64,000 nucleotides of DNA from Pseudoramibacter alactolyticus ATCC 23263 (GTDB taxonomy: Bacteria > Bacillota > Clostridia > Eubacteriales > Eubacteriaceae). Below the pieces are notes generated by a model that worked only from the letters and a program-made list of their open reading frames with translations, was not told the DNA's origin and searched no databases. A program made the translations under genes and the position numbers. The stretch spans positions 1,538,505-1,602,504 of the forward strand of contig NZ_GL622359.1 in the NCBI RefSeq assembly GCF_000185505.1. The letters run 5' to 3'. Positions 25,247 through 46,000 of the stretch are shown one piece after another (position 1 is the first letter of the stretch; each line of letters starts with the position of its first letter).

Positions 25247-25275
25247 TTGTTTCCGCCACGCGCTTGTTCTATAAT
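25247..25275 (+). promoter_or_regulatory. Promoter of the bza operon
   Basis: TTGTTT (25247-25252) and TATAAT (25270-25275) are 17 bp apart and directly precede the cobalamin riboswitch. A TTGACA at 25241 is 23 bp from the -10 and therefore probably not the -35. Confidence 0.7.
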
Positions 25276-25284
25276 GAAAAAAGC

Positions 25285-25456
25285 ATTGAAGGTGCCCCGG
25301 CAACGGGGAGAATAGGGAATCGGGTGTGAATCCCGAGCGAACCCATCACTGTGATCAGTTGAGATCCGCTGCGAACCACTGCCGACAGCACATCGCCGGC
25401 GGGAAGGGGCGGACCTGGCGTGCATAGCGCCGGCTGTCAGTCAGGAGACCTGCCTT
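25285..25456 (+). ncRNA. Cobalamin riboswitch (class I, adenosylcobalamin type)
   Basis: The conserved blocks occur in order: AAGGTGCC at the start, GGGAATCGGGTGTGAATCCC, AACCACTG and the B12 box AGTCAGGAGACCTGCC at 25439-25454. A terminator follows. Bound cobalamin would therefore switch off transcription of the bza genes, matching the known regulation of corrinoid synthesis genes. Confidence 0.95.
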
Positions 25457-25482
25457 GAATGATGATGCATGGATGACGGTAA

Positions 25483-25521
25483 AGTCCATAGTCGAACCTT
25501 TTTTCGGCTATGGGCTTTTTT
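25483..25521 (+). terminator. Riboswitch-controlled terminator upstream of bzaA
   Basis: GTCCATAGTCGAA pairs with TTCGGCTATGGGC (two G-U pairs) and is followed by six T. It serves as the expression platform of the cobalamin riboswitch. Confidence 0.9.
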
Positions 25522-25586
25522 AATGTCACGAAAGCCCGGCACTGGCCGAAACGGCACCAGCACTTCACAAATCAAAGGAGAAGCAG

Positions 25587-26900: not shown

Positions 26901-26901
26901 A

Positions 26902-28194
26902 ATGAGCACACAAATGTTAGAAGCCCGCGCCGGGCGCATCACCGAAGAAATGGAACGGGTCGCTCTCCAGGAAGGCGTGACGCCGGAATATATCCGAGAA
27001 CGGGTGGCCGACAGCCGCATTGTCATCCCGAAAAATACCCGCCGCAGCCGCAGCAAGATCTGCGGCATCGGCGAAGGCCTCGACATCAAGGTCAACTCGC
27101 TGATGGGCACCTCCTCCGACCGCAACGACAAAGCCATGGAAAAGCGCAAGCTCCAGCTGATCGAAGAGGCCGGCGCCGACGCCTTCATGGATCTGTCCAC
27201 CGGCGACGACATCGACGGCATGCGCCGCCAGTCCATCGCAAGCTCCAACATCGCGGCCGGCTGCGTGCCGGTTTATCAAGCGGCCAACGAAGCCATCGAA
27301 AAACACGGCTCCATGGTGGCCATGACCGGCCGGGACCTGCTGGACGTGATCGAAAAGGAATGCGAAGACGGCATGGATTTCATGGCGGTTCACAGCGCCT
27401 ACAACCGGCAGCTGTTCGACATTTTGCGAAAGACCGGCCGGCTGGCCAATATCGTCTCCCGCGGCGGCTCGATCCTGACCGCCTGGATGCACTACAACCA
27501 AAAAGACAATCCCCTCTACGCCGAATTCGACAAAGTGCTCGAAATCCTCAAATCCACCGATACCGTGCTCTCCATCGGCGACGCCATCCGTCCGGGCTGC
27601 AATTTCGATTCCCTCGACGCAGCCCAGATGGCTGGGCTGATGGTCGCCGGGGATCTCGCCAAGCGCGCCATCGAAGCCGGCGTGCAGGTGATGATCGAAG
27701 GGCCGGGCCACGTGCCGCTCAACCACATCGCCACCACGATGCAGATGCAAAAGCGCCTCTGCCACAACGTGCCCTATTACATCCTCGGTTTCCTGGCGAC
27801 GGACGTCGCGCCGGGCTACGACAACATCACCGGGGCCATCGGCGGCGCCTTTGCCGGAATGCACGGCGCGGATTTCCTGTGCAACCTTACCCCGGCCGAA
27901 CACCTCGGCCTGCCGACGGAAGAAGACGTGGTGATGGGCGTGCGCACGGCCCGCATCGCCGCCGACTGTGCCAACGTGCTGCGCCGGGGCGGCCGCGCCT
28001 GGAACCGTTCGCTGGCCATGGCCAAAGCCAGAGTGAATAACGACGTTCAGGCGCAGATCGACAACGCCTTGATGCCGGAAGTCCTCCGCGAGCGCCTGGC
28101 CCGCGAGCCGAAACACGATCACTGCGCGGCCTGCTCGGACGGGCTGTGTCCGGCCGATGTGGCCTACGATTATTTCTTCGGCGATAACGCCTGA
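26902..28194 (+). CDS. bzaB: BzaB, ThiC-like 5-hydroxybenzimidazole synthase component
   Basis: A 430-residue second ThiC paralogue, partner of BzaA. It shows ADSRIVIPKNTRRSRSKICG, MDLSTGDDIDGMRRQ, SIGDAIRPGCNFDSLDAAQ, MIEGPGHVPLNHI and the terminal cluster motif CAACSDGLCPAD (CxxCxxxxC, the spacing of canonical ThiC). ATG at 26902 follows GGAGGCATAAA at the end of bzaA. The pair bzaA-bzaB replaces the single bzaF found in other anaerobes. Confidence 0.9.
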   Translation: MSTQMLEARAGRITEEMERVALQEGVTPEYIRERVADSRIVIPKNTRRSRSKICGIGEGLDIKVNSLMGTSSDRNDKAMEKRKLQLIEEAGADAFMDLSTGDDIDGMRRQSIASSNIAAGCVPVYQAANEAIEKHGSMVAMTGRDLLDVIEKECEDGMDFMAVHSAYNRQLFDILRKTGRLANIVSRGGSILTAWMHYNQKDNPLYAEFDKVLEILKSTDTVLSIGDAIRPGCNFDSLDAAQMAGLMVAGDLAKRAIEAGVQVMIEGPGHVPLNHIATTMQMQKRLCHNVPYYILGFLATDVAPGYDNITGAIGGAFAGMHGADFLCNLTPAEHLGLPTEEDVVMGVRTARIAADCANVLRRGGRAWNRSLAMAKARVNNDVQAQIDNALMPEVLRERLAREPKHDHCAACSDGLCPADVAYDYFFGDNA

Positions 28195-28275
28195 CCATCC
28201 ATTGCCGAACAGGCGGCGGCAAGGCCTTCTGCCTGTCCACGTTTTATCAAGCATAAAGCATAAAGGAGCAAAATC

Positions 28276-29349
28276 ATGTCAAAATTATCCCTGAACGCCG
28301 TTCTCGCCGGCATCGAACCTTCCGACAAAAGCTGGGAAGCCCAAGCGAAACAACACGTGGAAGCACTGGCCGTACCGCCCTGGAGCCTCGGCCGCCTGTC
28401 CGAAATCGGCGTGCGGCTTTGCGGCATGCAGCGCACCCTCTCGCCGGACGTCTCGAAGAAGCTGGTCATCACCTGCGGCGCGGACGAAGGCGTCGCCGAC
28501 GAGGGCGTCTCGGCCTTTCCCCAACAGGTCACCCAGGAAATGCTCGCCAATATCGCTGCCGGCGGCGCGTCCATCAACGTTCTCGCAGGTGCGGCCGGCG
28601 CTGATGTGCGTCTGGTCGATCTGGGCGTGAAGGGTGACTTCCCGGATCTCATCGAAAAGGGTGTGCTGGTCGACCATAAAATCGCCTACGGCTCGAGCAA
28701 CATGCGCCGCGGCCCGGCCATGACCCGCGAGCAGGCCGTCGCCTCCCTGGAAGCCGGCATCAACGAAGCCAGTCAGGCCATCGCCACAGAAGGGGTGAGG
28801 CTTTTGGCCACCGGCGATCTGGGCATCGGCAACACCACCCCTTCCGCCGCCATTCTCGCCGTGATCGGCGGCTTTCCCGTCGCCGATGTCACCGGCCGGG
28901 GCACCGGTCTGGACGATCCCGGCCTGCAAAACAAAATCCGAGTGATCGAAGACGCCATTGCCCTCAACCGCCCCGACGCCACCGACGGCCTGGACGTATT
29001 GGCCAAGGTCGGCGGTTTGGATATCGGCGGCATCGCAGGGACCATCCTCGGTGCGGCCTATCACCGCACGCCGGTGCTGGTCGACGGCTTTATCTCCACC
29101 GCCGGTGCTCTCATTGCCAAAGCCCTGTGTCCCGCGGCGGCCGACTACATGATCGCCGCCCACAAATCCCAGGAGCCGGGCCACACGCTGATGTGGCAAA
29201 CCCTGGGCATCCGGCCGCTGCTCGATCTCGACATGCGTCTGGGCGAAGGCACCGGGGCCGCGGTCGCCATGCACCTCGTGGAATGCGCCGCCCGCTCGAT
29301 GACCGATATCCTCACCTTTGAGGAAGCGGCCGTGACCGAAAAGCACTGA
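28276..29349 (+). CDS. cobT: CobT nicotinate-nucleotide:dimethylbenzimidazole phosphoribosyltransferase
   Basis: A 357-residue CobT. It attaches ribose phosphate to the benzimidazole made by the Bza enzymes, giving the alpha-ribazole phosphate incorporated as the lower ligand of cobamides. Visible features are VITCGADEGVADEGVSAFPQ, LATGDLGIGNTTPSAAI, VDGFISTAGALIAKALCP, HKSQEPGH and the C-terminal DLDMRLGEGTGAAVAM. TAAAGGAGCAAAATC precedes the ATG. The location between bzaB and bzaC matches the described Eubacterium limosum order. Confidence 0.95.
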   Translation: MSKLSLNAVLAGIEPSDKSWEAQAKQHVEALAVPPWSLGRLSEIGVRLCGMQRTLSPDVSKKLVITCGADEGVADEGVSAFPQQVTQEMLANIAAGGASINVLAGAAGADVRLVDLGVKGDFPDLIEKGVLVDHKIAYGSSNMRRGPAMTREQAVASLEAGINEASQAIATEGVRLLATGDLGIGNTTPSAAILAVIGGFPVADVTGRGTGLDDPGLQNKIRVIEDAIALNRPDATDGLDVLAKVGGLDIGGIAGTILGAAYHRTPVLVDGFISTAGALIAKALCPAAADYMIAAHKSQEPGHTLMWQTLGIRPLLDLDMRLGEGTGAAVAMHLVECAARSMTDILTFEEAAVTEKH

Positions 29350-29353
29350 CGCC

Positions 29354-30904
29354 ATGATGCATTACGATCCCCACGAAGACGCAGGCCAATACCTCGAAGA
29401 CCTGGCGACCGCTTATTGGGCGTCCGAATCCCTGTTCGCCGCTTTGGGAGCAGGGCTTTTCACCTTTTTAGCCGACGCCGAATCCGCCGATGCCGGGGAT
29501 ATCGCCGCCCATTTCGGCTGGAAGCCGGACGCGGCCGAGCGTTTTCTTTGGCTTTTGCGGGAACTGGGCCTGGTCGATCATTACGACGGGCAGTGGTTTA
29601 ACACCGTGCTCAGCCGCGACCACCTCATTGCCGGCGCACCGGCCGATCAGCGTGCCAACATCCACTGGCGCGAAGCCCTCAAAGCTGAATGGGCCACCCT
29701 GCCCGCCGTGCTCGCTGCCGGCACCCGCACCCATTTCCCCGAACCTGCCGTGAGCGACGCCGTCATGGATGTTCGCCGCCGGGACTATCTGCAGGCAATG
29801 GACGCCGTGATCGCCGGCAAGCTTCCGGAAATTCTGCCCATGGCGCTGCCCGCCCTGCCGAAAAACACCCGCATCCTCGACGTGGGCGCCGGCAGCGGGG
29901 CCTTCGGCTGCGCTTTTCTCAAGGCGCTGCCCGAGGCCCGTGCCGAGCTCATGGATATTCGGCAGATGCTGCCCATCACGGCCGCGATCAATGCCGGGCG
30001 CCCGAAAGCCCTTGCCCGCCGCGTGACCCTGCGGGAACAAAATATTCTGGATCGCCCCTGGGATGTCGGCCGCTACGATCTGATCATCCTCTCCAATATC
30101 GTTCACGCCACCGGCCGAGCCGAATCGGCAGCCGTCCTCGCAGAGGCGGCCCGCCACCTCACCCCCGGCGGGCTCCTCCTCGTTCACGACTTTTTCACCG
30201 AGCACCGCCCCCTCAAAAGCCGGCTCTCCGACATCAATATGATGGTCAACACCTATAACGGCCGGGCCTACAGCGCCGCCTGGGTCAAAGAACAGTGTGA
30301 AGCCGCAAGGCTTGCGGCCACTGCCCCCGTCCCGCTGTCCACCGATACGGCCGTGGTTTTCGCGGCGACAGATCCAAAAGTCCTTGCGCGGCTTGCCGTC
30401 GACCGTGCCGCCCAGCTCATCGCCCCCGTCAAAAGCTGCGGCTTTCTGGACGCAATCCCCTTCGATCCAAAGGATGTGGTCTTCGCCGATTTCGCCCGAC
30501 ACAAATGCGCTTTTGGCTGCAGTTCTGCCGGGGCAAAGACCTGCGCGGTCAACGACGCCATGAGCACCGCCGAGACGATGCGCCTGGTGCGTTCCTACCA
30601 AAAAGCGCTGCTGCTGCGCGGCGAGCCGCCCACCGGCGATTTTCAGCGCAGATGTCTTCAGGCCGAGGCCCTGGCTTTCAAGGCCGGCTTTTATAAAGCC
30701 TTTGTCTTCTGGGCCGGCCCCTGCAGCATCTGCCCCGACTGCGACCCCGACGCGCCCTGCGCCAACCCAAAACACCACCGCCCTTCGATGGAGGGCAGCG
30801 GCATCGATGTGTACGCCACGACGGCCAAGGCCGGCGAGGCCCTGCACACCCTCCGACAAAAGGGCGAGGTCGTCAAGTATTACGCTTTGCTTTTACTCGA
30901 ATAA
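29354..30904 (+). CDS. bzaC: BzaC-type methyltransferase fused to a DUF2284-like metal-binding domain
   Basis: A 516-residue protein. Residues 1-345 are an O-methyltransferase of the hydroxyneurosporene/plant type with an N-terminal winged helix (FGWKPDAAERFLWLLRELGL) and the SAM motif ILDVGAGSGAFG near residue 175. In the bza pathway BzaC methylates 5-hydroxybenzimidazole to 5-methoxybenzimidazole. From about residue 350 a second domain begins (FDPKDVVFADFARHKCAFGCSS, AGPCSICPDCDPDAPCANPKHHRPSMEG), rich in cysteine and resembling DUF2284 predicted metal-binding proteins. Whether this fusion is standard for BzaC is not known to me. It begins 4 bases after cobT. Confidence 0.87.
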   Translation: MMHYDPHEDAGQYLEDLATAYWASESLFAALGAGLFTFLADAESADAGDIAAHFGWKPDAAERFLWLLRELGLVDHYDGQWFNTVLSRDHLIAGAPADQRANIHWREALKAEWATLPAVLAAGTRTHFPEPAVSDAVMDVRRRDYLQAMDAVIAGKLPEILPMALPALPKNTRILDVGAGSGAFGCAFLKALPEARAELMDIRQMLPITAAINAGRPKALARRVTLREQNILDRPWDVGRYDLIILSNIVHATGRAESAAVLAEAARHLTPGGLLLVHDFFTEHRPLKSRLSDINMMVNTYNGRAYSAAWVKEQCEAARLAATAPVPLSTDTAVVFAATDPKVLARLAVDRAAQLIAPVKSCGFLDAIPFDPKDVVFADFARHKCAFGCSSAGAKTCAVNDAMSTAETMRLVRSYQKALLLRGEPPTGDFQRRCLQAEALAFKAGFYKAFVFWAGPCSICPDCDPDAPCANPKHHRPSMEGSGIDVYATTAKAGEALHTLRQKGEVVKYYALLLLE

Positions 30905-30927
30905 TCCAAAAGAATTGGAAAAAAACC

Positions 30928-32286
30928 ATGACCAACCTGACCCCCCGCAAAAAAATCCTGCTGATTCAGGCCATCTCGATGGAAGGGATGGATATTGAAC
31001 GGGTGTATCCCATCGGCATCACCACCCTCGGCACCATCATCCGCCGCAGCGGCCGCTACGCTGTGCGCATCTTCGACATGAACATGGCGTTAAGTCCCTA
31101 CGCCGAGCTTAGGCGCCTGATCGCCGAGTGGCAGCCCGACGTCCTCGGCATCTCCCTGCGCAACCTCGATCCGTTGGGCAACCGCACCACCTCCCTGATC
31201 GTCCCTTTTGCGCTGACCCTGCACTTTTTGCGGCAGTTCGCGCCCGACCTGCCGCTGATGGCCGGCGGCACCGCCTTCACCCTCTTCCCCGAGCGGCTGA
31301 TGCGCGACTTTCCCGCCATCACCTGCGGCATCGTTGGCGAGGCGGAACACAACGCCGTCGCCGTGGTCGACGCCCTGGCGGAAGGCGCCGCCCCGCCGGA
31401 TATCCCCGGCGTTATCCGCCGCACGGAAGCCGGGCTGCATCTCAACCCGCCCGCCAATGACTTCGACATGGGCGATTATCAAATGATCGACCGTGACCTC
31501 AACGATCCGATCCCCTATCTTGCGGTGAATAAATATGTGGAGAGCATCGGCGTCGAAACCAAGCGCGGCTGCTGCTACCGCTGCGGCTACTGCGCCTATC
31601 CCAAGCTTTCCGGCCGCTGCGTGCGCCTGCGGGATCCAAAGGACGTTGTCGACGAGATCATCATGTTAAAAAAGCGCTACGGCGTCACCCGCATCCATTT
31701 CACGGATTCCATCGTCAATTTCCCAACAAGCCATCTCGACGCCATCTGCGAAGAGCTGCTCCGTCGGAATGCGGGCATCCATTGGTCCGGCTTCTTCCGG
31801 GAGGACCTTTTCACCCCGGAGAACGCCCGACTTTATGCCGCCTCGGGCTGCGAATCCTTTTCCCTCTCGCCGGACGGCCTGTGCCAGCAGCATCTGGATC
31901 TGTTGGACAAGCACATCCGCGTCGAGCAGATTCTCACGACGGCGGAAATTCTCTCGCGGGTCGGCATCACTACCGTCTATCACTACCTGGTAAATCTGCC
32001 GGGGGAATCGCCCCGGACCATCCGCGAATCCAAGCAGATGATCGACGCGATTTACGACATCCACCGCGGCACCAAAAGTCTGGGGACCATCGTGCTCAAT
32101 CTGGTGCGCATCATGCCGGATACCAAAATCGAACGCCTGGCCCTGGCCGGCGGAGAAATCACCCCGGATACCGATCTGCTCTACCCGGTGTATCACGATC
32201 CGGCGGCCTACCGCACCCTGCGCTACGAGCTCGAAATCTATCATCAGCAGAAAAACATCGCCATGTGGCACGGCTTTGCCCCGTAA
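30928..32286 (+). CDS. bzaD: BzaD, cobalamin-binding radical SAM enzyme
   Basis: A 452-residue protein with an N-terminal B12-binding-like Rossmann domain (residues about 8-150, IRRSGRYAVRIFDMNMALS, LMAGGTAFTLFPERLM) and a radical SAM core whose cluster motif reads CCYRCGYC (CxxxCxxC) at about residue 213. BzaD acts after BzaC in methylating the benzimidazole ring at C6, giving 5-methoxy-6-methylbenzimidazole. Lacking a DxHxxG motif in the B12 domain, the cobalamin would bind base-on or without His. The gene is 23 bp after bzaC and 23 bp before bzaE. Confidence 0.88.
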   Translation: MTNLTPRKKILLIQAISMEGMDIERVYPIGITTLGTIIRRSGRYAVRIFDMNMALSPYAELRRLIAEWQPDVLGISLRNLDPLGNRTTSLIVPFALTLHFLRQFAPDLPLMAGGTAFTLFPERLMRDFPAITCGIVGEAEHNAVAVVDALAEGAAPPDIPGVIRRTEAGLHLNPPANDFDMGDYQMIDRDLNDPIPYLAVNKYVESIGVETKRGCCYRCGYCAYPKLSGRCVRLRDPKDVVDEIIMLKKRYGVTRIHFTDSIVNFPTSHLDAICEELLRRNAGIHWSGFFREDLFTPENARLYAASGCESFSLSPDGLCQQHLDLLDKHIRVEQILTTAEILSRVGITTVYHYLVNLPGESPRTIRESKQMIDAIYDIHRGTKSLGTIVLNLVRIMPDTKIERLALAGGEITPDTDLLYPVYHDPAAYRTLRYELEIYHQQKNIAMWHGFAP

Positions 32287-32309
32287 TCACGACCGTCAAG
32301 GAAGGAATC

Positions 32310-33797
32310 ATGATGAAAATTTTATTACTCGAACATCCCCGCGTGCCCTCGAAGGAGCGCCGCAACGACATCGCCAACACCACCCTGGCCTCCTGCCTGA
32401 ACTCCGGCTACATGGCGGCCGCTCTGCTCGCGCACGGCCACCAGGTGGAATTGGTCGAGGGTTATATGGAAAACCTGAGCTTCAAGGCCATTGAGGCCAA
32501 AATCGCCGCCTTTCGCCCGCAGCTGCTCGCCGTTCATCTGGTCTATAACTGGGAGGACAAACGCCGGCTTTTTGATTTCCTGACGCGGCTTAAGGCGCAA
32601 TACGCCATCACCCATTTGAGCGCCTACGGCTATTACCCCACCTTTGCCTACGCGGAGGTGCTCACCCGCTGCCCGGCCATCGATTCGGCGATGCTCGGCG
32701 AAAACGAAATAACCGTCGTCGCCCTGGCCGAGCATCTGAACGACTGGCGCCCGCTGACCGGCCTCGCCTTCCGCGAAACCGACGGAAGCTTCGCCGCTTC
32801 CTTCGGCGAGCCGGTGCAGGATCTGGACGCCCTGCCCTTCCCCATTCGCAAAGCCACGGCTTATCCCGGCGGCGAGGTAAACATCTTCGGCAGCCGCGGG
32901 TGCTACAACAACTGCACCTTTTGCTATATCAATCCCTTTTACGGCGAAACGGCCGGCTGCCCGCGCTGGCGCGGCCGCTCTCCGGAAAACATCGCCGCCG
33001 AGATCGATATGATCATCGCCCAGACCGATCACCGCTATTTTTATTTTACCGATCCCAATTTCTTCGGCCCGGGGAAAGCCGGCCGGGACCGGGTGCTGCG
33101 CCTGGCGGCCCTTCTGGCCGAACGCCCCATCACCTTCGGCATTGAGGCCCGCGTCAACGATATTGACGATGCCGTGATCGCCGCTTTGGTGGATGCCGGC
33201 CTCACGGATATCCTCGTCGGGCTCGAGAGCGGCCGCCAGGCGGCCCTCGACCGGCTGAACAAACACACCACCGTCTCCCAGAACGAAGCCGCTCTGGCCG
33301 TTTTGCGCCGCCACGGCATCGAACCCAATGTCGGCTTTATCATGTTCGAGCCCGACTCCAGCTTCGACGATCTGCGGGAAAATTTTGCCTTCCTCAAACG
33401 CAACCGCCTGCTTGACCGGCTGGAAGTCGCCGTCAACGTGCTTTATCACCACCAGATCATCCTCGCCGGCAGCGCGGCCTATGCCGAGCTCGCCGCCCAA
33501 GGCCGGCTTAAAATCTCCGATCATTCGGTCTACGAAGCTGAAACGGAATACCTCAATCCGCAGGTCAGCCATTTCGCCGCCTTTATGCGAAACCTCACGG
33601 GTCACATCTTCGACCAGATGATGGACACCTGGCAGGCTTCCGCCCAAGGCGATCCCGCCGTACGCCGCCGCTACACCGAGATGAACCGAATTCTGGTGGC
33701 AAGCTTCGATGCCGTCTTGAACGATCCCGCGCTGCTGACGCCGGCCGACGCCCTGCTGGTCCGCCAGACGGCAGCCATCGACGCGGTCATGGCTTGA
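32310..33797 (+). CDS. bzaE: BzaE, cobalamin-binding radical SAM enzyme
   Basis: A 495-residue B12-binding radical SAM protein: start MMKILLLEHPRVPSKERR (ATG at 32310 after AAGGAAGGAATC), N-terminal B12-like domain to about residue 150, then the cluster motif CYNNCTFC (CxxxCxxC) near residue 203 and the TIM-barrel segments YFYFTDPNFFGPGKAGRDR and LVGLESGRQAALDRLNKHT. In the known pathway BzaE converts 5-methoxy-6-methylbenzimidazole to 5,6-dimethylbenzimidazole, so its presence predicts DMB as the final ligand. Last gene of the operon. No clear terminator follows. Confidence 0.88.
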   Translation: MMKILLLEHPRVPSKERRNDIANTTLASCLNSGYMAAALLAHGHQVELVEGYMENLSFKAIEAKIAAFRPQLLAVHLVYNWEDKRRLFDFLTRLKAQYAITHLSAYGYYPTFAYAEVLTRCPAIDSAMLGENEITVVALAEHLNDWRPLTGLAFRETDGSFAASFGEPVQDLDALPFPIRKATAYPGGEVNIFGSRGCYNNCTFCYINPFYGETAGCPRWRGRSPENIAAEIDMIIAQTDHRYFYFTDPNFFGPGKAGRDRVLRLAALLAERPITFGIEARVNDIDDAVIAALVDAGLTDILVGLESGRQAALDRLNKHTTVSQNEAALAVLRRHGIEPNVGFIMFEPDSSFDDLRENFAFLKRNRLLDRLEVAVNVLYHHQIILAGSAAYAELAAQGRLKISDHSVYEAETEYLNPQVSHFAAFMRNLTGHIFDQMMDTWQASAQGDPAVRRRYTEMNRILVASFDAVLNDPALLTPADALLVRQTAAIDAVMA

Positions 33798-33879
33798 GCG
33801 ATGCGGCCGGGACCGGACACGTTTTTGAAACATCTTGCGATTTTTTTATCTGCCGAAAGTCTTTTCAACGCCGGTAAAA

Positions 33880-33908
33880 TTGACGGAACCGCCAAAATTC
33901 AATATAAT
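33880..33908 (+). promoter_or_regulatory. Promoter of the symporter gene
   Basis: TTGACG (33880-33885) and TATAAT (33903-33908) are 17 bp apart. Confidence 0.8.
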
Positions 33909-33966
33909 AAAGAAGATTGAGCGATTGATCTGCTCATGCATTTCGCCATTTGAAGGAGGCTTTCAT

Positions 33967-35214
33967 TTGAATAAATCCACCACGCCCGCCCAAAAGCGCC
34001 GGCGGCTCGGTCTGCTGCCCCGCCTGCTTATCGGCATTGTCGCTGGGATACTCATCGGCGGTGTCGGCGGCCTTTTCGGCATCGCCAAAACCGCGCCTTA
34101 TATCAGTTTTATCCGCTTTATCGCAACGCTGACCGCCCTGTTTTCGACCTTCCTCAATTTTATCATCCCATTGCTCATCCTGGCCTTTGTGGCCGTCGGC
34201 CTCGCAGAACTGGGTAAAAAAGCCAACAAACTTTTCGGCATCACCCTTGCCCTGGCCTACCTGTCGACGATCGCCGCCGGTTTTATCTCGTTTATCCTCG
34301 GCAAGGCGCTGCTTCCGTCCCTCATCGCCCACATCACCGGCGGCGTGGTGAAAGGCACGGAATTTAAAGTGCTCTTTGCCGTCACGGTGGATCCGGTTTT
34401 TCCGATTATGACAGCCCTGATTTTCGCTTTTGTGCTCGGGCTAGCCATGGCCAACACCAACACCCCCACGATGATGAACCTGATGCAGGATTTTAAGGCC
34501 ATCATCATCAAGGTACTCGAAGGCGTGATTATCCCGCTGATCCCCTATTACATCGCCGGCACCTTTGCCAAGATTGCCGCTTCCGGCGAATTGGTGCCCA
34601 CCATCATCATGTTTGCAAAGCTTTATGCCATGATCCTCGCGCTGCAATGGGCCTATATCCTCGTGCAGTTCACCGCGGCGAGCCTCTACAACAAGGAAAA
34701 CCGCTGGCGCGATCTGAAAAACATCATGCCGGCCTATTTCACCGCGCTGGGCACCCAATCCTCGGCGGCGACCATTCCCGTCAACCTCGAGAGCGCCAGG
34801 AACAACGGCATCGGCGGCGATGTGCGCAACTTTGTGATCCCGCTGTGCGCCACCATTCACCTGGCCGGCGACACCATTTGCCTGGTGCTCGGCTCCATGG
34901 GCATCCTCATCGCCACCGGCACCGCGCCCACCCTTGCGATGTATGCCCCGTTCATTTTCATGCTGGGCATCACGATGGTCGCCGCTCCCGGCGTCCCCGG
35001 CGGCGGCGTTATGGCGGCCCTCGGCATCATCAAATCCATGCTCGGCTTCACTTCCGGCATGGGGGAGCTCATCATCGCACTGCACCTGTCGCAGGATAGT
35101 TTCGGCACCGCCTGCAACATCACCGGCGATCAGGCCATCGCAGCGATCGTCAACCGCATCGATCAGCGTGACCGTCAAAAAACCCCTCGCCTTTCCGAGA
35201 CGCCCGATGCCTGA
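33967..35214 (+). CDS. Dicarboxylate/amino acid:cation symporter (DAACS family)
   Basis: A 415-residue membrane protein of the GltP/DctA/SstT superfamily, which imports dicarboxylates, glutamate/aspartate or serine/threonine with H+ or Na+. About eight transmembrane helices are followed by two re-entrant loops. The hallmark serine-rich motif appears as LGTQSSAATIPV, and the later blocks are IPLCATIHLAGDTICLVLG, MVAAPGVPGGGVMAALG and FGTACNITGDQAIAAIV (conserved NITGD). The start is TTG at 33967, set by GAAGGAGGC nine bases upstream. The substrate cannot be fixed from sequence. Confidence 0.88.
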   Translation: MNKSTTPAQKRRRLGLLPRLLIGIVAGILIGGVGGLFGIAKTAPYISFIRFIATLTALFSTFLNFIIPLLILAFVAVGLAELGKKANKLFGITLALAYLSTIAAGFISFILGKALLPSLIAHITGGVVKGTEFKVLFAVTVDPVFPIMTALIFAFVLGLAMANTNTPTMMNLMQDFKAIIIKVLEGVIIPLIPYYIAGTFAKIAASGELVPTIIMFAKLYAMILALQWAYILVQFTAASLYNKENRWRDLKNIMPAYFTALGTQSSAATIPVNLESARNNGIGGDVRNFVIPLCATIHLAGDTICLVLGSMGILIATGTAPTLAMYAPFIFMLGITMVAAPGVPGGGVMAALGIIKSMLGFTSGMGELIIALHLSQDSFGTACNITGDQAIAAIVNRIDQRDRQKTPRLSETPDA

Positions 35215-35282: not shown

Positions 35283-37196
35283 TTAGAATTTTCGGCCGCG
35301 CCAGTAATTCTGCGATTGCTTTCGGCCGCCCCGCCGTCTGGCTGTCGCGATGAGGGCGATGATCACCGCCGCCAAAATCACCGCCAATGCGACGGCGCCA
35401 TAGGTGAGCCAGCCGATGCGCGAGGGATTCCCCAGATAGCGCCGCACATTTGTCCCGGAATCCGCAATTTTCCCTTTGCGCACCTGATTGTAGGCCGCGG
35501 GCACCACCGGCTTGCCGGAAGCGTCCGGCGCCTGCGCCTTCAGATAAATCACAAGGCACTGCCAGTCTTTTACTTCCCGACCTTCCCGATCCGTCAGGAC
35601 GGCATCCCGCAGCGACCGAATTTCCTTGCCCGTCTTGGTTTCAAAGGAAACGCTCACCAAACTTTTTGATTTGGCGGCCAGTCGGCTCAGCCGTTTGGCC
35701 AGCGTCCAGTTCATCGTCACGGCATAGCGCTTATGACCGCCCGCCGCCTGCCATCGGCCCGACGCGGTCTGCACCTGCACCCGCGTCACCTGATTCATCG
35801 GGGTGCGATTGCGGTCATAAGTATAACGCAAGCCGGAGAAGAAAAGCTGATGAGCCCCGCCGTTTTTCCCCTGGGTCAAGTCGAGTTCGCAGAGGTTGCG
35901 CAAATCTTCTCCGGTGAGATAGGCCACAATCATCGACGCGCCGACGCTGTGATCGCTGCCTTCTCCCGGCGCCGTGACCTGATACAGATCCGCCGCGGTG
36001 AGATCCCCCGCCGAAAGACTGCCGCGGGTCCCGCCGGCCTCCGCAATACCGATAACGTTCCGCCTTTTACCATTCTGCGCCTGATGGCGATAGGCATCCG
36101 TCAGCAGATTTTCGATATCTGCATCGCCGAATTGCCGCTTCATCCTGGCGACCGACGTGAAGCTTTTATTGCTCCGGGCGATCGCCGTGTCAAAATTCAA
36201 CTGATGCGCGTCGAGCACCCGCTTTTGAACGGTCTTTTGATAATCGGCAATTTGCCCAGCCACTGTCTCGTCCGCTTTGATTTTTTCGGTCACCGGCACC
36301 AGCCCGTAAGCCTTGACGGCGCCGCTTTTTGCATTCAGATCCAGCACGCCGAGTTTTTCACCCCGGGTGCCCGCCGCAACGATGGCCGTGTTGTTTGCCG
36401 TCAGCGGATCCGCCAGCAATCGGCCTGTTCCGCCGAGCAAAATAGCATTGATGCCGTCGACCTTGTCGGCCAGCATTTCGGCTTCAGCTGTCGTGCTGCC
36501 GCCCTGAAACAGGCAGATAATGCAATCCACATTCTGTTTTTTCAAAGCAGCCACACAGCTTTTCGCGGTTTTAACCGGATCGGCAAAGCTCAGATCGCCG
36601 CTGTCGGCAATCTGGGCCGCGGCATTTTTGCCCATCAGCCCAAAGACGCCCACCTTTATTTTACCGGCATGGATCACTTTGGTCCTCTGCCCCACCGAAG
36701 CGTAGGCCTTTTTCAGCGCGCGGCTGCTCTTGCTTTTGCCAAAGGTTAAATTGGAAACCAGCACCGTCGGCGCGTGCGCAGTCGTGAGCCCTGGCGCCGT
36801 CCAGGCCTTTGCCAATGCCGAAACGCCCTGCGCCAATTCGTCGCCGCCCAGCGTTGTCGCGTCATAGCCCATCGTGCCCATCAGCTTAAGACCCGGATTA
36901 TCCGTCGCGCCAATCGTGGCAAATAACGACCCCTGGGAATAATTCCCCGTGTCCAGCACGACGGCGCTGTCTGTTTTATTGGCCGCGATCAGGCTGGCCA
37001 GCCGGCTGTAGCCTCCAACACCGCCTCTGGCCTTGGCCGTTGACGTCAGCTGCGCCTGCAGATCCGTGGTAAAAATCACCCGCAGCGTTGCGGTCTCGGT
37101 TTTTGCCGCCGCCCAAACCGGCGCACCGCTGCCCCAACAAAGCATCAACGCCACCAAAATGCCAAGCCACCGTTTGATTCTTCGATCTTTCCCCAT
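35283..37196 (-). CDS. 5'-nucleotidase-like surface protein with eroded catalytic motifs
   Basis: A 637-residue exported protein. It begins with a signal peptide (ALMLCWGSGAPVWAAA) and ends in a transmembrane anchor (GAVALAVILAAVIIALIA) followed by a basic tail. Residues 35-290 align by eye to the metallophosphatase half of UshA-type enzymes and residues about 340-560 to their C-terminal domain (AEAGGTRGSLSAGDLTAADLY). But the metal and catalytic motifs are changed: the usual D-x-H-G reads TTDLQAQ, GNHEFD reads GGDELAQ, and GHTH reads GGTGR. It therefore probably lacks nucleotidase activity and may act as a binding or adhesion protein. Ends cleanly, with no internal stop. Confidence 0.8.
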   Translation of the reverse strand: MGKDRRIKRWLGILVALMLCWGSGAPVWAAAKTETATLRVIFTTDLQAQLTSTAKARGGVGGYSRLASLIAANKTDSAVVLDTGNYSQGSLFATIGATDNPGLKLMGTMGYDATTLGGDELAQGVSALAKAWTAPGLTTAHAPTVLVSNLTFGKSKSSRALKKAYASVGQRTKVIHAGKIKVGVFGLMGKNAAAQIADSGDLSFADPVKTAKSCVAALKKQNVDCIICLFQGGSTTAEAEMLADKVDGINAILLGGTGRLLADPLTANNTAIVAAGTRGEKLGVLDLNAKSGAVKAYGLVPVTEKIKADETVAGQIADYQKTVQKRVLDAHQLNFDTAIARSNKSFTSVARMKRQFGDADIENLLTDAYRHQAQNGKRRNVIGIAEAGGTRGSLSAGDLTAADLYQVTAPGEGSDHSVGASMIVAYLTGEDLRNLCELDLTQGKNGGAHQLFFSGLRYTYDRNRTPMNQVTRVQVQTASGRWQAAGGHKRYAVTMNWTLAKRLSRLAAKSKSLVSVSFETKTGKEIRSLRDAVLTDREGREVKDWQCLVIYLKAQAPDASGKPVVPAAYNQVRKGKIADSGTNVRRYLGNPSRIGWLTYGAVALAVILAAVIIALIATARRRGGRKQSQNYWRGRKF

Positions 37197-37244
37197 TGCA
37201 CACCTCTCGTCCGCGGCTCGCTACCGCCGCTGTTCATGTCAAAT

Positions 37245-37253
37245 ATTATAGCA
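37245..37253 (-). promoter_or_regulatory. Extended -10 promoter of the nucleotidase-like gene
   Basis: TGCTATAAT on the minus strand lies just past the 5S terminator and 49 bp before the ATG at 37196. There is no convincing -35. Confidence 0.5.
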
Positions 37254-37263
37254 AAATCCGAAC

Positions 37264-37274: not shown

Positions 37275-37392
37275 ATCCCGCAACGTTCTATCCTCCCGGG
37301 CAGCTGCCCGCCAAGTACTTTCAACGCTAAAGAGCTTAACTGCTGTGTTCGGGATGGGAACAGGTGTGACCTCTTTGCCGTTGTCACGGAAT
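37275..37392 (-). rRNA. rrf: 5S ribosomal RNA (isolated gene)
   Basis: The minus strand reads GGCAAAGAGGTCACACC, TTCCCATCCCGAACACAG, AGTTAAGCTCTTTAGCG, TACTTGGCGGGCAGCTGCCC and GGGAGGATAGAACG in order, the conserved backbone of bacterial 5S rRNA. The first and last ten bases pair as helix I (A-T, T-A, T-G, C-G, C-G, G-C, T-G, G-T, A-T, C-G), fixing the ends at 118 nt. No 16S, 23S or tRNA gene lies beside it. Confidence 0.95.
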
Positions 37393-38680: not shown

Positions 38681-39445
38681 TCAATTGTCGGCTGTTCTTC
38701 TTTGGTCAATCGCTTTTTGACGGCGCCAATCAACCGCCATAAGCGCCGCGGCCGCCGCCATCAGCAGGGTGCCCACCCACAGCGACGTGCGGGCAGCGTC
38801 CCCCGTTTTAACCCGGTGGGATTTCGGCGGACGGTGAGGTTTCGGCGGATTGACCGGCGGCGCCGTCTTGGGCACCACATCCGGTTTGGGAAGGCTCACC
38901 ACCTGATATTGCCAGCTGTTGCCGCTATCTGTTTGAACCACTGCCGGCGCCATGATCAAATACGGCGCCAGCATTTCATAACCTCGGGCCGCGCCCTCGG
39001 CTCCCGTTTGCATCACCAAATAGATGCCCGGATCAAGGCCGGTAAACCGCGCCTGACCACCGGCATCCGTGGATGCCGCTGCCCGGGGGCTTTGCTTTTT
39101 CGCCAGTACCGCCAGTTTGGCCGCCGCCCTGTTCGAGGCTGCCGCGGTCATCCCTTCAAATTGAATGCCTGCCGAGGCATAAGCCGGTGTCGCCGTATAA
39201 ACCGCGCCGCCCCCGCGTACCTGCAGACTTGCCACCTGATAAATCGCCATCTGCGCGCCGGCGATGGGCACGCTGCGGCTCCCGTCGACATAGCAAAACT
39301 TCACGGTGACGCTGCTCTTTTCGCCGGAAAGCGCCGGCACGCGGTTATCGGCCGCCGAGACGGGCGCTATCAGAAGCAGTGCACCCAGCACAAGGCTCAC
39401 GATGGCTGCCGTTGCCATTTTAATAGAGATTGTCTTTTCGCGCAT
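38681..39445 (-). CDS. Basal/minor pilin-like surface protein
   Basis: A 254-residue wall protein. A signal peptide (IVSLVLGALLLIAPVSAA) is followed by a Cna-B-like domain (VTVKFCYVDGSRSVPIAGAQMAIYQV ... GGQARFTGLDPGIYLVMQ). A proline-rich stalk comes next (KTAPPVNPPKPHRPPKSH), then a non-canonical sorting signal RVKTGD, a membrane helix and a basic tail. A short protein with a Pro-rich stalk at the end of a pilus operon fits a basal pilin joining the fibre to the cell wall. AGGAGTAGAAGC precedes ATG at 39445. The reader should treat the sorting motif as VKTGD rather than LPXTG. Confidence 0.78.
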   Translation of the reverse strand: MREKTISIKMATAAIVSLVLGALLLIAPVSAADNRVPALSGEKSSVTVKFCYVDGSRSVPIAGAQMAIYQVASLQVRGGGAVYTATPAYASAGIQFEGMTAAASNRAAAKLAVLAKKQSPRAAASTDAGGQARFTGLDPGIYLVMQTGAEGAARGYEMLAPYLIMAPAVVQTDSGNSWQYQVVSLPKPDVVPKTAPPVNPPKPHRPPKSHRVKTGDAARTSLWVGTLLMAAAAALMAVDWRRQKAIDQRRTADN

Positions 39446-39449
39446 GCTT

Positions 39450-40334
39450 CTACTCCTTTGTTTCCCTTTTGTTTAGCGCCTGGCGATCGGCCATGCGCCG
39501 CTTCATGATGGTTGAAATCACCGCTGCACTCACCAACCCCACCAACAGCAATTTCCATGCCAGGCTGCGATCGATGAACGGGCCCTTTTCTGCCGCTTTG
39601 GTTTTAGGCACATAGGGCACGCGATGCCCCCGCACGAGCAGCCGCTCGGTGTTCACGCCATAGGGTGTGCATGTGAGCAGCGTTACCAGATCCCGCCCCG
39701 GTTCAATGGCCAGGGCATCCAGCGCATTCGGCTTCACCACGGAAATTTTGTCCACCCGGTAGGCCAGGGTCTGCCCCATGATCACCAGATAAAAATGATT
39801 GCCTTTTTTGATTTGATCCAAATCCGTAAACAATTTGGCGCTGGGCAACCCCCGATGGGCCGCGAGCACCGCATGGGTACCGCTGCTGCCGACCGGCAGG
39901 CTGGTGCCCTGCACATGGCCGACACCCTTTTCGAGCACGGCCGCCGAGGTGCCATGATAAATGGCCAGCCGCAGCCGAATCTTCGGAATCTCCAGCGAGC
40001 CCATGATGCCGTTGCGGGACGGATCGAGCACGGCGTTGTATCTTTCGTCCTTTGCCATCGACGATTTTTTTTGGGAAAAAACGTCCGTGACGGTATTCGT
40101 CGAATGATCCGCATTGTACTGCCAGGCTGCTTCCCAGATGTTCTTTCTTTGCTCTGAAGTCAACTGTTCTGCCTTTTCCTGATATTGATGAATGTTCTGC
40201 GTGTTAAATTGGCGATTCCACAAATCGCTGATTGTCGGATAAAACAACACGCCAATACCAACCACCGCCAGCAATAATGCAACAGCATTAATGCCGCGTC
40301 CCCTTCCGCCGCCCTTCGTTTTATTACTTGTCAT
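39450..40334 (-). CDS. Class C sortase (pilus polymerase) 1
   Basis: A 294-residue sortase with an N-terminal (AVALLLAVVGIGVLFYPTI) and a C-terminal (LAWKLLLVGLVSAAVIS) membrane segment, the class C layout. The catalytic His lies in AAHRGLPSAKLF, Cys in LLTCTPYGVNT and Arg in RLLVRGHRV. The lid region before the core reads LDPSRNG rather than the usual DP(F/W/Y), so lid control may differ. The gene is 4 bp ahead of the basal pilin gene. Confidence 0.94.
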   Translation of the reverse strand: MTSNKTKGGGRGRGINAVALLLAVVGIGVLFYPTISDLWNRQFNTQNIHQYQEKAEQLTSEQRKNIWEAAWQYNADHSTNTVTDVFSQKKSSMAKDERYNAVLDPSRNGIMGSLEIPKIRLRLAIYHGTSAAVLEKGVGHVQGTSLPVGSSGTHAVLAAHRGLPSAKLFTDLDQIKKGNHFYLVIMGQTLAYRVDKISVVKPNALDALAIEPGRDLVTLLTCTPYGVNTERLLVRGHRVPYVPKTKAAEKGPFIDRSLAWKLLLVGLVSAAVISTIMKRRMADRQALNKRETKE

Positions 40335-40419
40335 CTATTATTATCATTTCCCTTTTTGCTTGACCTCATATGGAATTCGCAATTTTTTATTTTGATTCTT
40401 CTCCGGTATCTCTTTTCTG

Positions 40420-41259
40420 TCATTTATTCTGTATCTTTCGGTACAATTTAAACAAGAACCATGCGCCAATCATTCCCGCTGCGGCACTGAGCGCTTCCAG
40501 AATCCCGTGGCCGAATCCGAATTTTCTATTTCGATTCTCCCGATGTTCGAGCTTCGGCGAATAGGCCACCCGATGTCCCCGGACCAACAGCCGATGGGTG
40601 TTAACCCCGTAAGGCGTGCAGGTTACCAGTGTCGCATAATCCTTCCCTTTAACGGGCGCCAGAGATTTCACTTCCTCGGGCTTCACGGTCACGATACGGT
40701 CGACTTTGTAGGCCAGCACGCGGTCGAGGATATGCAGAAAGAAGTGATCTCCCTTTTTCAGAATATTCAAATCCGTGAACATCTTCGCAGAAGGCAGACC
40801 TCTGTGCGCGGATATCACGGCGTGCGTCCCTTTGCCGCCGACCGGCAGTGAGGAGCCCAGCAAATGCCCCGCGCCTTTCAGCATCACGGCCTTCGTCGTG
40901 TAATGATAAACCGGCAGTTTAACATGGATAGACGGAATGCTGATGTATCCCATAATGCCGTCGCGGTTGATGTTCAGTAATTTTTCATAGTAGGGATCCC
41001 GAATGCCGTCACGAATCGAAAAGGCATCCGGCACCGAGGGCTCATTCAAAGTGCCGTTATAGGCCTTGGCCTGTTCCCAGGCACGATCCAGATCCTTATG
41101 GTCCATCTTTTGAACACCGTGATTATAGGCCCCGATGGTCTGCTCGCTGATATAGGCATTCCAGCGGTTGCTGACGGTGGGATACAACAATATGGACAAC
41201 CCTATCAAAAAAAGCAACAGCACCAGAAGATTGCTAAAATTGATTTGTCGCTTCTTCAT
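40420..41259 (-). CDS. Class C sortase (pilus polymerase) 2
   Basis: A 279-residue sortase from ATG at 41259, chosen for the GGAGAGACCT ahead of it. It has two membrane segments (LLVLLLFLIGLSILLYPTV and the C-terminal LSAAAGMIGAWFLFKLY), a lid motif RDPYYEKLL, catalytic His in SAHRGLPSAKMF, Cys in LVTCTPYGVNT and Arg in RLLVRGHRVAY. The two adjacent class C enzymes are similar but clearly diverged, so one may polymerise the shaft and the other add a minor pilin. Confidence 0.94.
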   Translation of the reverse strand: MKKRQINFSNLLVLLLFLIGLSILLYPTVSNRWNAYISEQTIGAYNHGVQKMDHKDLDRAWEQAKAYNGTLNEPSVPDAFSIRDGIRDPYYEKLLNINRDGIMGYISIPSIHVKLPVYHYTTKAVMLKGAGHLLGSSLPVGGKGTHAVISAHRGLPSAKMFTDLNILKKGDHFFLHILDRVLAYKVDRIVTVKPEEVKSLAPVKGKDYATLVTCTPYGVNTHRLLVRGHRVAYSPKLEHRENRNRKFGFGHGILEALSAAAGMIGAWFLFKLYRKIQNK

Positions 41260-41342
41260 AGGTCTCTCCATAATATTGTACCGGTGGCCGATCTTTCGGT
41301 CGGCCACCAAATTCTATTTGCCGTTTTAAAGTTCAATTTTAA

Positions 41343-42932
41343 TTATTCAGACTGATGGTTTTTTCTTTTTTTCGAAAAGTACAAGCCTGCAGCGATCGCG
41401 ATGATGGCGACACCAATAGCTGTGAAGATATAGGTCCCCATGGCCCCGGTGTTCGGCAGTGTGCCGATGGTCTTATTTTCGATCAATGTCGTCTTGTTTT
41501 CAGTCCCTTTGTCAATGGTCGTAACGGTCGTCCCCGTATAAGTGGCTGTGTATTCCGATGCATTCCCGTTAATGGTCACCTTGTAGGATTTCAGCAAGCC
41601 GGTTGCCGCATCGATATCCGCCGTGATTTCAGCCGGAATTTCCGTTTCATTCAGCGCGTAGCCGTCGGGAGCCTTTGTTTCAACAATCACATACTTGCCG
41701 GCATCCAAACCTTTAAAGCCGATCAGCCGCCCGGTGCTGTCTGATGTGGCGGTCATCAGGGCATTGCCTGTTTTATGGCCGTCAGCGCCTTGTTTGTAGA
41801 TGGCAAATTGAGCGCCTGCCAGCGCATTGGCATCCCCGTATTTGGTTTCCGAGGTGATTTCGCTGGTGCTGATGACCGTCTTGTTGCCCTTGTCGTCAAC
41901 CTTGATCACTTCCTGCGTGCGTTTTTCGTTCCAGGGTTCTTTTCCGCTTAACTTCCCGTTGATTTCAAAGGTATAGTGATGGGTAATGACTTCGTCAGAA
42001 TCCTTTGTCGTGCTCGGAGAGTTGGAATAGGTCACTTTTGCCGTATTGTCGTTGGGATCGAAATTCACCACCGCATTATTGCCCAATTTGGCGTTATAAG
42101 TGATTGTGATCGCCTGATTGCCGTGGGCAGAAATATAATCCGCTTTAAAGTCAACAGTAAAACTGGTCCCGTTATTGGTTAACGTGTAGTCCGTATCTTT
42201 GGTCAACGTATCGCTGCCCGCCTTAACCACAACATCGTCAATGCCTTCCAGACCCTCTTTGACCGTATCGGATACGGTGAATTTCGGATTGGTATAGTTT
42301 CCTGCATAAGAAGGAATGGTCGTCCCGATTTCAAACTTCACGGTGTCGCCGATAGCGGCCGTATCGCCCTTGTCTTCCTTGCTGCTGTCGACGATCTTTT
42401 TGGTGATGGACGGTTCGGATTTCTTTGCATAGGCGTTTGCATCCCCGTAAAGATGCTCATCCTTGCCGGCTGTGACGGTGCCGTCGTGGCTATCGCCCTT
42501 CACGTTGACGCTGACCAGCATCGGATTGTAAACCGCAACCGGACTGCCGCTGCCGACGCCCTTCACCAATACCAGGTATTCCCCTGCATCCACACCGGAT
42601 TTGGAATAGTCCGAACCGGAAGCGGTCAAATCGATCGGCGTGCCAAGATCGCCTGCATTGGCCGCAGCAACCAGGTCTTTAATTTCCGCTGCCGTCGGCT
42701 TGAAGGTTGTCTTATCGGCAATGGAGCCAGCCTTTACTTCTGAATATTTGACAAATTCCCCATTGCTGTATTCCGCTTTGACAATTTTATACGCCTGGAC
42801 GGTCACGCCGGATTCCACGCCTTTAACGGTGATGGTGCCGGTAACTTCCGCCGCGAACGCCGGAACGGCCATCGCCAGCATCATGACCAGCGCGATCAAG
42901 ATGGCACTGGTGTTCCTTTTGATATTCTGCAT
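41343..42932 (-). CDS. Major pilin (SpaA-type, isopeptide-forming)
   Basis: A 529-residue shaft pilin. Signal peptide to about residue 28 (VMMLAMAVPAFAAE), then Cna-B type domains with the E-box VIVETKAPDGYALNE near residue 430. A lysine that could take part in intermolecular bonding occurs in NAYAKKSEPSITKK. It ends with the sorting signal LPNTG, a hydrophobic helix and KKRKNHQSE. GAAAAGGAGAACAAGT precedes the ATG. Expected substrate of the two sortases next door. Confidence 0.92.
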   Translation of the reverse strand: MQNIKRNTSAILIALVMMLAMAVPAFAAEVTGTITVKGVESGVTVQAYKIVKAEYSNGEFVKYSEVKAGSIADKTTFKPTAAEIKDLVAAANAGDLGTPIDLTASGSDYSKSGVDAGEYLVLVKGVGSGSPVAVYNPMLVSVNVKGDSHDGTVTAGKDEHLYGDANAYAKKSEPSITKKIVDSSKEDKGDTAAIGDTVKFEIGTTIPSYAGNYTNPKFTVSDTVKEGLEGIDDVVVKAGSDTLTKDTDYTLTNNGTSFTVDFKADYISAHGNQAITITYNAKLGNNAVVNFDPNDNTAKVTYSNSPSTTKDSDEVITHHYTFEINGKLSGKEPWNEKRTQEVIKVDDKGNKTVISTSEITSETKYGDANALAGAQFAIYKQGADGHKTGNALMTATSDSTGRLIGFKGLDAGKYVIVETKAPDGYALNETEIPAEITADIDAATGLLKSYKVTINGNASEYTATYTGTTVTTIDKGTENKTTLIENKTIGTLPNTGAMGTYIFTAIGVAIIAIAAGLYFSKKRKNHQSE

Positions 42933-43046
42933 ACTTGTTCTCCTTTTCGTTTGTTTTTCAGGTTCTGTCTTTTATATCTCATTCCTCTTTTTGTTCCCGT
43001 CTGTCCATCACGTCCCTTCTGTATTTATATTCTCTGAATGATTAAG

Positions 43047-46000
43047 TCATCGCTGACGCCCCGGCTGCCGCTTCTTTTTACTGTAAAGCATCAGCGCGCC
43101 GATGGTCATCATCATACTACCAAGCAGCGTCAGCACGTGGGTGCCGATGCCGCCGGCGTTCGGCAGTTCATAAATGGGGTTATTCCGCACGAAAACTTCG
43201 CCGTTGCTGGCATTCATCACAATATTGGCGTTGTCGGACGCGGGAATCACATGACCGTTGTCGTCGATCGTGATCATCATGGGTTTTTCAATCAGATAAT
43301 AATCCTTCGGCGCCTTGGTCTCTTTCAGATAATAGACACCCGGCTTCAGGCCAAATACCTTCACATTTCCCTGTTGATCCGACGAAAAAGTGGTTACCTT
43401 GTCCCCCTGCATCTCTTTTGTGAGATACACTCCGACAATATCCTGACATGCTTCGTCTTTATAGAGCGAGAATTCTGCCCCCGCCAAATACTTATTGTCA
43501 TCGGTGCTGTCCACCTTTGTAAATCCAAGCGGGAAATAATCCTTCACATTTTTAATGGTTACATTGCCGCTGGTGCCATCATTGCCTTCATAGGTCGTGG
43601 TGAAACCGGACGGACCGTCCACTTCCTTCACGTAATAGAAATAATAATAGGTTTTGCCATTATTTCCCGTCTCCTGCACCGGCAGATCACCAAATGTGTG
43701 TGACCAGCCGTTGGCTGTCAGTGTGGCTTCCCCGTTCGGATATGCCTTCAGATTCTCAGTATCCTGAATATCCGACATTTTTTTCGGCGGTGTCGGTTTG
43801 GTTGTAATGGTCGTCGTCCCCCCCGACGAAGATCCGGCGGTGGAGATCTCAATATAATCCATGCTGGCTTTCAGTGACGGCGTTCCCGAGACCCATTGCA
43901 ACCAGCCGATCATATCCGTTTCAACGGTCGTCGCATTGCTGACATTGGAAAGCGTATAGGTCGCCTGCACGCGCATATTTTTCCATTGTCCCCCATCATA
44001 GTACCGATTGGTTATATCCGTATCCACCGGATTTGTCGCAGAAAGCGTCTGCCCGCCTGCTTTTACCTGATGGACACCAAATCCGGTTGATCGGCTCCAG
44101 ACAGTAAAGGTAATGCTGCCGCCCTTTGGCACCTGATAAGTAAAATCGCCCAAGTCACCGCCCGTTAGGCCTAAGCTGGTGCTGTTGCCGCCGTTGCTTC
44201 CGACCGCGCCATGATATCTGGTCGTAAAGGTCACCGGCACCGTTTCCGTCGACGGCGGATTGGGGACCGTCGTCGTTTTCTCGGCCATTTTGTATTGGTA
44301 AAGCTGAACTTTTACCCTATCTGGCGGATTCTCCAAGGGCGATCCGTCGGCCTGCTGCCATTTCTTTTCCACCTTTACCTTGGTTTTCATCTCGTTTTTA
44401 ATGGTTAGCGTGGTGCCCGATTGGCCGGTGCTTTCTGAATAGCTCACCACATAACCGTTTGGCACGGAAATTTCTTCCACTTCATAGGTATAACTATCCG
44501 TTCCGCTTTTGGCGATCAGCCCTTCAAAGGTTTTGCGCCAATTGCCTGCATTCAAGGTGAAAATCGTGTTGCCCTGGGCATCCCGATACGGCTCTTTGTG
44601 TTCGGTATCGCCGTTTTTAATCCGGTACAGCCGGAACCGGATGTTCGCCGGTCGATTGCTCTCGCTGTCGCCTTCCCACTTCTTCTCAACGGTAATGTTT
44701 TTCTTTTCTTCCCGGATCTTGTTCTTGAAATTCAGCACGTTGTCGCCGGTGCTGGCACTCACGCCGGCGCTGCTGGCCTCCAAATTACTGTGCCCGTCGG
44801 AAAGGGCGAGCGACTGCGTATCGCTGCCGCTGATGTCCACGCCGGAAAAATGACTGCCGTCCAGTCCCAGCTCGACGATTTTATATTTCCAGTTGGACTT
44901 CATATCCAGCAGTTTGGCGTTCTGGGTGGGCTTCAATTTGAATTTGCCGTCGGTCACATGCGTGGTAACCCCGTAAATTTCAACGTTGCCTTCGTAAGGC
45001 ACATAGTTGCCGTTGCCCTTATCCACCAGCGCCTGGAACTGGAAGTCCTTGTTCAGATAATCCGCGCTTTGTTCACCCTCCACCGATTTGTTCACCGTCA
45101 CGGTTTTGGTGATGGGAATATTCAGGGTGAGGGCCAGATTGGAATACTGACCGCCCCGTTCCAGGTAGAACATGTCGAATTGGTGGTTGGTGTCGTTGCG
45201 CCAGGTGATACCCTGTTCGGCAAAAATTTCCCGCAGGGTCGTCGTCTTCACATTGCCGGGATTGTTCTGCGGCCAGGTCTTCACCTCGCCGGTCGCAAAG
45301 TTGATGGTCCCGTGCACCGGCTCGTGGATGCCGCCGATATCCAGCACCAGCACCCCGTCGATATAAAGCCACATATCGTCATCGCCGCTGTACTCAAAGA
45401 CCATGTCCTTTCCGTTAGGCAGCTTGCCGTTATGAGGCAGCGAAAAGTTCGCCTTCATCGTCATCCCGAAATGGTGGTTGTAGTATTGGTGATTGATAGG
45501 ATTTCCATTCTGATTCGGCGTGTTATTATCAATGTACGTTTGGCTGTCGTTATAATCGGTAAACGGGAAAAATCCAATTTTATAGCTGCTGTTGTTCGAT
45601 GTGCTGTATGTCCCGTTATAGACCTTAAAATTGCCGCCGCCACCTTGACTGGAATTGTAGTACGCATAATTTTTATTGCTGTCGTATTGATAGGTCCCCT
45701 GGTCGTCCCGGGTCATCAGATGATTGACATTGGCATAGGTATTCTTGGCATTAGGAATATTTTGGGTGTCAAACAGATATTTAAGACTCTCGCTCCCGCC
45801 GGCAAGCACCGGGTAACCGTCGTTTCCCAGCGTTTTCTTCACAATCCCTGTTCTGGCGGGATTATTCGCCCCGGTAAAGTTGTTAATGCCCGAGCCTTCC
45901 ACGCCATAGGAAGTGAATTTTAAAGAATGATTTTGATTAATGCCCACATTAAAGGGATTCGGCGGGATATTGGCCCCATCGTCTAAAGTTTTTCCCTGAT

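Follow-up and report, generated by a model that had tools for sequence, protein, structure and literature searches.

A probable retained pseudo-5'-nucleotidase, secreted and membrane-tethered, in the genus Pseudoramibacter

The window, meaning the whole 64-kb stretch of Pseudoramibacter alactolyticus DNA analyzed here, encodes a protein that, judging from comparison with its relatives, is probably a retained pseudo-5'-nucleotidase, extracellular and membrane-tethered. By descent it is, from its sequence, a member of the TM-anchored branch of the UshA/CD73 family, but it lacks the feature that defines that family as enzymes. The only protein of this family in the genus is now without an active site, yet is kept by selection. 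A preliminary description of this DNA proposed a pseudoenzyme kept for another purpose. This proposal has good support from the loss of the motifs in all four near-complete genomes of the genus, from the grouping of the eroded proteins in one clade, and from the conserved locus, purifying selection, and intact export and anchor signals. The gene and its altered motifs are as follows.

35283..37196, minus strand: pseudo-5'-nucleotidase gene, 637 aa, ATG start
37050..37070, minus strand: motif I, TTDLQAQ, residues 43–49 (DxH in relatives; D45 kept, H47 replaced by Q)
36942..36953, minus strand: motif II, DTGN, residues 82–85 (GD in relatives; D85N)
36828..36848, minus strand: motif III, GGDELAQ, residues 117–123 (GNHEFD in relatives)
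36498..36512, minus strand: motif IV, LFQGG, residues 229–233 (LSHSG in relatives; H231Q)
36420..36434, minus strand: motif V, GGTGR, residues 255–259 (GHTHT in relatives)

The open reading frame has no internal stops and encodes, in order, a Sec-type signal peptide (MGKDRRIKRWLGILVALMLCWGSGAPVWA, residues ~1–30), a degenerate metallophosphatase domain (~36–310), a 5_nucleotid_C domain (~346–500), a tail (501–585), a TM helix (~593–620), and a basic C-terminal tail, which agrees with the preserved fold order and absence of stop codons noted previously. LPXTG is absent from the protein, whose C-terminus consists of the TM helix and basic tail. Among Pfam profiles, PF02872 (5_nucleotid_C) matches with 63.5 bits against a cut-off of 23.6, and PF00149 (Metallophos) has no match at E<=1 in this protein, nor at E<=0.01 in its three eroded congeners; both profiles score in intact relatives. 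Scores against the NCBIfam nucleotidase models fall far below their cut-offs (21.4 bits against 1050 for Nt5e_LPXTG, NF040549). Sequence comparison with solved structures leads to the 5'-nucleotidases of Thermus and E. coli and to human CD73.

The preliminary description read TTDLQAQ, GGDELAQ, and GGTGR in place of the metal-binding motifs, and these are indeed the residues found; five motifs are altered in all, against the three it gave. Only D45 remains of the nine ligand and catalytic positions, which in the window protein read D-Q-N-G-D-A-Q-G-G (DxH to DLQ, D to N85, N to G118, H to D119, D to A122, H to Q231, H to G256, and H to G258). In the three congeners the nine positions begin with R-D, an Arg replacing D45, and end with K-G, K-G, or A-G, so that the motif V His becomes Gly, Lys, or Ala across the eroded proteins. 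The missing di-metal ligands speak strongly against hydrolysis of phosphoesters by the mechanism of this family. A 5'-nucleotidase annotation of the window gene would probably be mistaken.

Orthologues were collected from genomes of the same family, and further relatives came from a collection scan (80 loci from many phyla) and a class-wide search (17). The patterns chosen for the collection scan were peptides that adjoin two of the motifs and lie off the ligands, and a few rows are partial proteins; a scan of genome contigs with the single window protein found no relatives. Six orthologues from other genera (G007, G008, G011, G012, G015, and G018) have every motif intact where sequence is present. 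When fitted to one profile, the 104 rows from outside the genus, about 99 of them distinct, have at most one of the nine positions changed, compared with eight of nine in the window protein and seven to eight of those scored in the three congeners, so the motif loss is not a matter of chance. The 17 matches within the class that scored best against the eroded profile included no separate loss, though low-scoring cases could escape such a sample. Five Pseudomonas-type homologues (L071, L073, L082, L087, and L099) have DWQ for DxH at motif I, with the rest intact.

Within the window's GTDB genus (Pseudoramibacter, Eubacteriaceae), all four near-complete genomes carry an eroded copy; a fifth, which is just 65% complete, gave no match. 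The preliminary description had envisaged orthologues with the same replaced motifs, and this holds in part: the motifs are lost in the congeners (G002, G003, and G004) as well, more deeply than in the window protein, but the replacing residues differ between species. Each near-complete genus genome encodes one PF02872 protein, the eroded one, with no second copy, and other PF00149 proteins are present there. A metallophosphatase of about 700 aa with intact-looking motifs (L125, L127) occurs in the four other genomes of the genus and was not found in the window's genome.

Maximum-likelihood trees place the four eroded proteins in one clade, with support of 99/92 from all columns and 98/95 when the motif columns are removed. 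The catalytic residues are therefore lost in a clade nested among intact relatives, the pattern by which a pseudoenzyme is recognized. Independent losses were considered and rejected: without the motif columns the eroded proteins still fall on one side of a branch, and trees that join the window protein to intact L003 and/or L028 are 8–13 log units worse (AU p 0.047–0.071), which disfavors two separate losses without strongly excluding them. A single origin of the loss is thus favored by the sequences.

The setting of the gene gives this history an anchor, through the features listed next.

37196..37255, minus strand: promoter-like element and RBS, with an extended -10 (TGCTATAAT) and AGAGGTG ahead of the ATG, read by eye
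37275..37391, minus strand: 5S rRNA gene (Rfam RF00001, 85.7 bits), directly upstream of the pseudo-nucleotidase
33835..35214, plus strand: sodium:dicarboxylate symporter, convergent with the pseudo-nucleotidase

The pseudo-nucleotidase starts about 80 bases past the 5S rRNA gene. In G004 it lies behind the 5S of a complete 16S-23S-5S operon, and in G002 the contig opens inside a 5S gene just ahead of the eroded gene. In G003 the contig that carries the nucleotidase has a 5S at its start, and about 8–10 kb of other genes lie between the two. In G007, from a sister genus, the intact orthologue likewise lies behind a 5S and is convergent with a homologue of the window's symporter that is 65% identical to it; a CobT gene lies beyond. 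This common 5S and symporter setting indicates that this is most likely one gene at one conserved place, with intact motifs in G007 and eroded ones in Pseudoramibacter, and it makes this a locus-anchored case of an ecto-enzyme turning into a non-catalytic surface protein. Two irregularities were seen around the 5S. Three large ORFs (695, 332, and 1750 aa; L109:71-8412) separate it from the pseudo-nucleotidase in G003 and are probably an insertion. No 16S or 23S gene occurs within the 64-kb window, and its lone 5S, set against the full rrn operon of G004, may be what remains of a lost operon or may result from assembly collapse.

A gene that had lost its activity might simply be drifting under relaxed selection on its way to decay, without a function. 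The branches of the eroded clade are long (the L009–L011 stem amounts to 2.35 changes per column), and the ligand positions hold different residues in different species; part of this change may reflect relaxed constraint, and the length of the stem hints at an episode of rapid evolution, either as the site was lost or afterwards. However, the gene is open and complete in all four near-complete genomes, with no stops and with every length change in frame. The eroded gene is under purifying selection in the one pair for which dN/dS is reliable, wider comparisons being saturated: G004 and G002 (76% identical, 543 codons, pN 0.142, pS 0.55) give a dN/dS of 0.16, compared with 0.05–0.17 in intact pairs, and both domains are constrained, with values of 0.18 for the former catalytic domain and 0.12 for the C-terminal domain. 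A similar extended -10 and RBS, also read by eye, precede the eroded genes of the congeners, and the signal peptide and TM anchor are kept in the eroded proteins. These features do not fit a dying gene, and we consider decay unlikely; the best reading is that one conversion in the ancestor gave a pseudoenzyme that was then retained.

An AlphaFold2 model of the window protein built on an alignment of 45 relatives (pLDDT 90, pTM 0.85) has the two-domain 5'-nucleotidase fold across residues ~33–582, a fold that is in part inherited from the alignment, as this consists of intact relatives. With VIA-align, the closest solved fold is 3IVD (Z 36.0, 462 residues, 3.4 Å); CD73 superposes with Z about 34 and rmsd 3.0–3.6 Å to many closed forms, and 2Z1A is also among the closest folds. 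Structure prediction and superposition on UshA, as earlier proposed, thus recover a predicted two-domain fold, with Z about 32.

The substrate pocket has diverged as well. Its base-stacking Phe, which lies in the LPFG of CD73, and its Asn are already missing in most of the intact subfamily, where the stacking position is Leu or another residue. The window protein retains the Arg of the pocket (R391), but the congeners have Lys or Asn there, so three of the four eroded proteins are without it. Divergence of the pocket weakens the case for canonical nucleotide binding, one of the purposes suggested in the preliminary description, and, taken with that of the metal site, makes a canonical nucleotide less likely as the ligand.

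We propose that the ancestor was a normal secreted, TM-anchored nucleotidase adjoining an rRNA operon, and that its two-metal site would have been lost once in the ancestor of the genus, after which the gene was kept. With phosphate-ester hydrolysis presumably gone, the two-domain clamshell, presented outside the membrane on a single TM helix, most likely serves as a surface-displayed binding or scaffold module. At the weakest step of this proposal, its partner would more likely be a protein, a polymer, or another surface partner than a canonical nucleotide.

A more specific role, as a metal-free receptor or decoy in which a cationic residue at the former metal place could hold an anionic ligand without hydrolyzing it, seems improbable to us. 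A cationic side chain does occupy the former metal site in three of the four species, where the motif I Asp is replaced by Arg, and two of these also have Lys in motif V; the window protein itself keeps the Asp. If this role were true, the only 5'-nucleotidase-C protein of the genus would have given way to a sensor or binder.

Somewhat less probable again is that the proteins are still enzymes with a rebuilt site, using a different metal (one Mg or Ca) or a mechanism that needs none, perhaps with a different substrate. The window protein does have oxygen donors that might in principle coordinate a metal (D45, Q47, N85, D119, and Q231), and a Gln at position 47 is also seen in otherwise intact Pseudomonas homologues. 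Yet no alternative ligand set common to the four eroded proteins was found in the nine aligned positions, which in the congeners depart from those of the window protein at both ends of the series, with Arg at the D45 position and Lys, Ala, or Gly for the motif V His. The alternative metal-ligand set against which the preliminary description wished its reading judged, in a structural model, does not appear among the aligned residues as a feature common to the four. An artefact of sequencing, frame, or assembly, or a mis-assignment of the family, can be dismissed, since the erosion is seen in four separate genomes and the fold and C-terminal domain assignments are strong.

Among known systems, the retained pseudo-5'-nucleotidase is most like the TM-anchored Firmicutes subfamily of the UshA/5'-nucleotidase family (PF00149 + PF02872), exemplified by the Eubacterium callanderi and E. 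aggregans orthologues (L029, L030), with which it shares domain order, signal peptide, TM anchor, and fold; the eroded proteins differ in having at least seven of nine metal and catalytic residues replaced and in lacking a Metallophos match. Human CD73 and E. coli UshA have the same fold (Z 32–36), but the window protein lacks their di-metal ligand set, adenine-stacking Phe, and pocket Asn. Gram-positive surface nucleotidases have been studied as adenosine-making virulence enzymes. Nt5e, from a Gram-positive bacterium, has a similar two-domain, surface-displayed architecture; it is active on ATP and, by its NCBIfam name, LPXTG-anchored, in contrast to the TM-anchored window protein. Inactivated calcineurin-like phosphoesterases in which the fold is kept as a binding or scaffold module include VPS29 and the B-subunits of eukaryotic DNA polymerases, which unlike the window protein are not extracellular, lack a 5_nucleotid_C domain, and stem from an unrelated lineage event. 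A literature search of partial coverage found no pseudoenzyme in the bacterial 5'-nucleotidase family.

The gene lies close to a sortase-dependent pilus locus (38681-46193, minus strand), which contains paired sortases, a backbone pilin, a large Cna_B tip-like protein, and a small pilin-like protein, with an adjoining AraC regulator. The preliminary description pointed to this proximity, and we rejected it as evidence of an association: the window gene is preceded by a promoter-like element of its own behind the 5S, and no pilus genes were recognized near the nucleotidase in the congeners or beside the intact orthologue. On present evidence the proximity is coincidental.

On the other side of the pseudo-nucleotidase, the plus strand at 25273-33797 carries a cobalamin riboswitch and, behind it, two ThiC-like genes, CobT, a methyltransferase, and radical-SAM/B12-type genes. 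This arrangement resembles an anaerobic benzimidazole (bza) operon for the lower ligand of cobamides.
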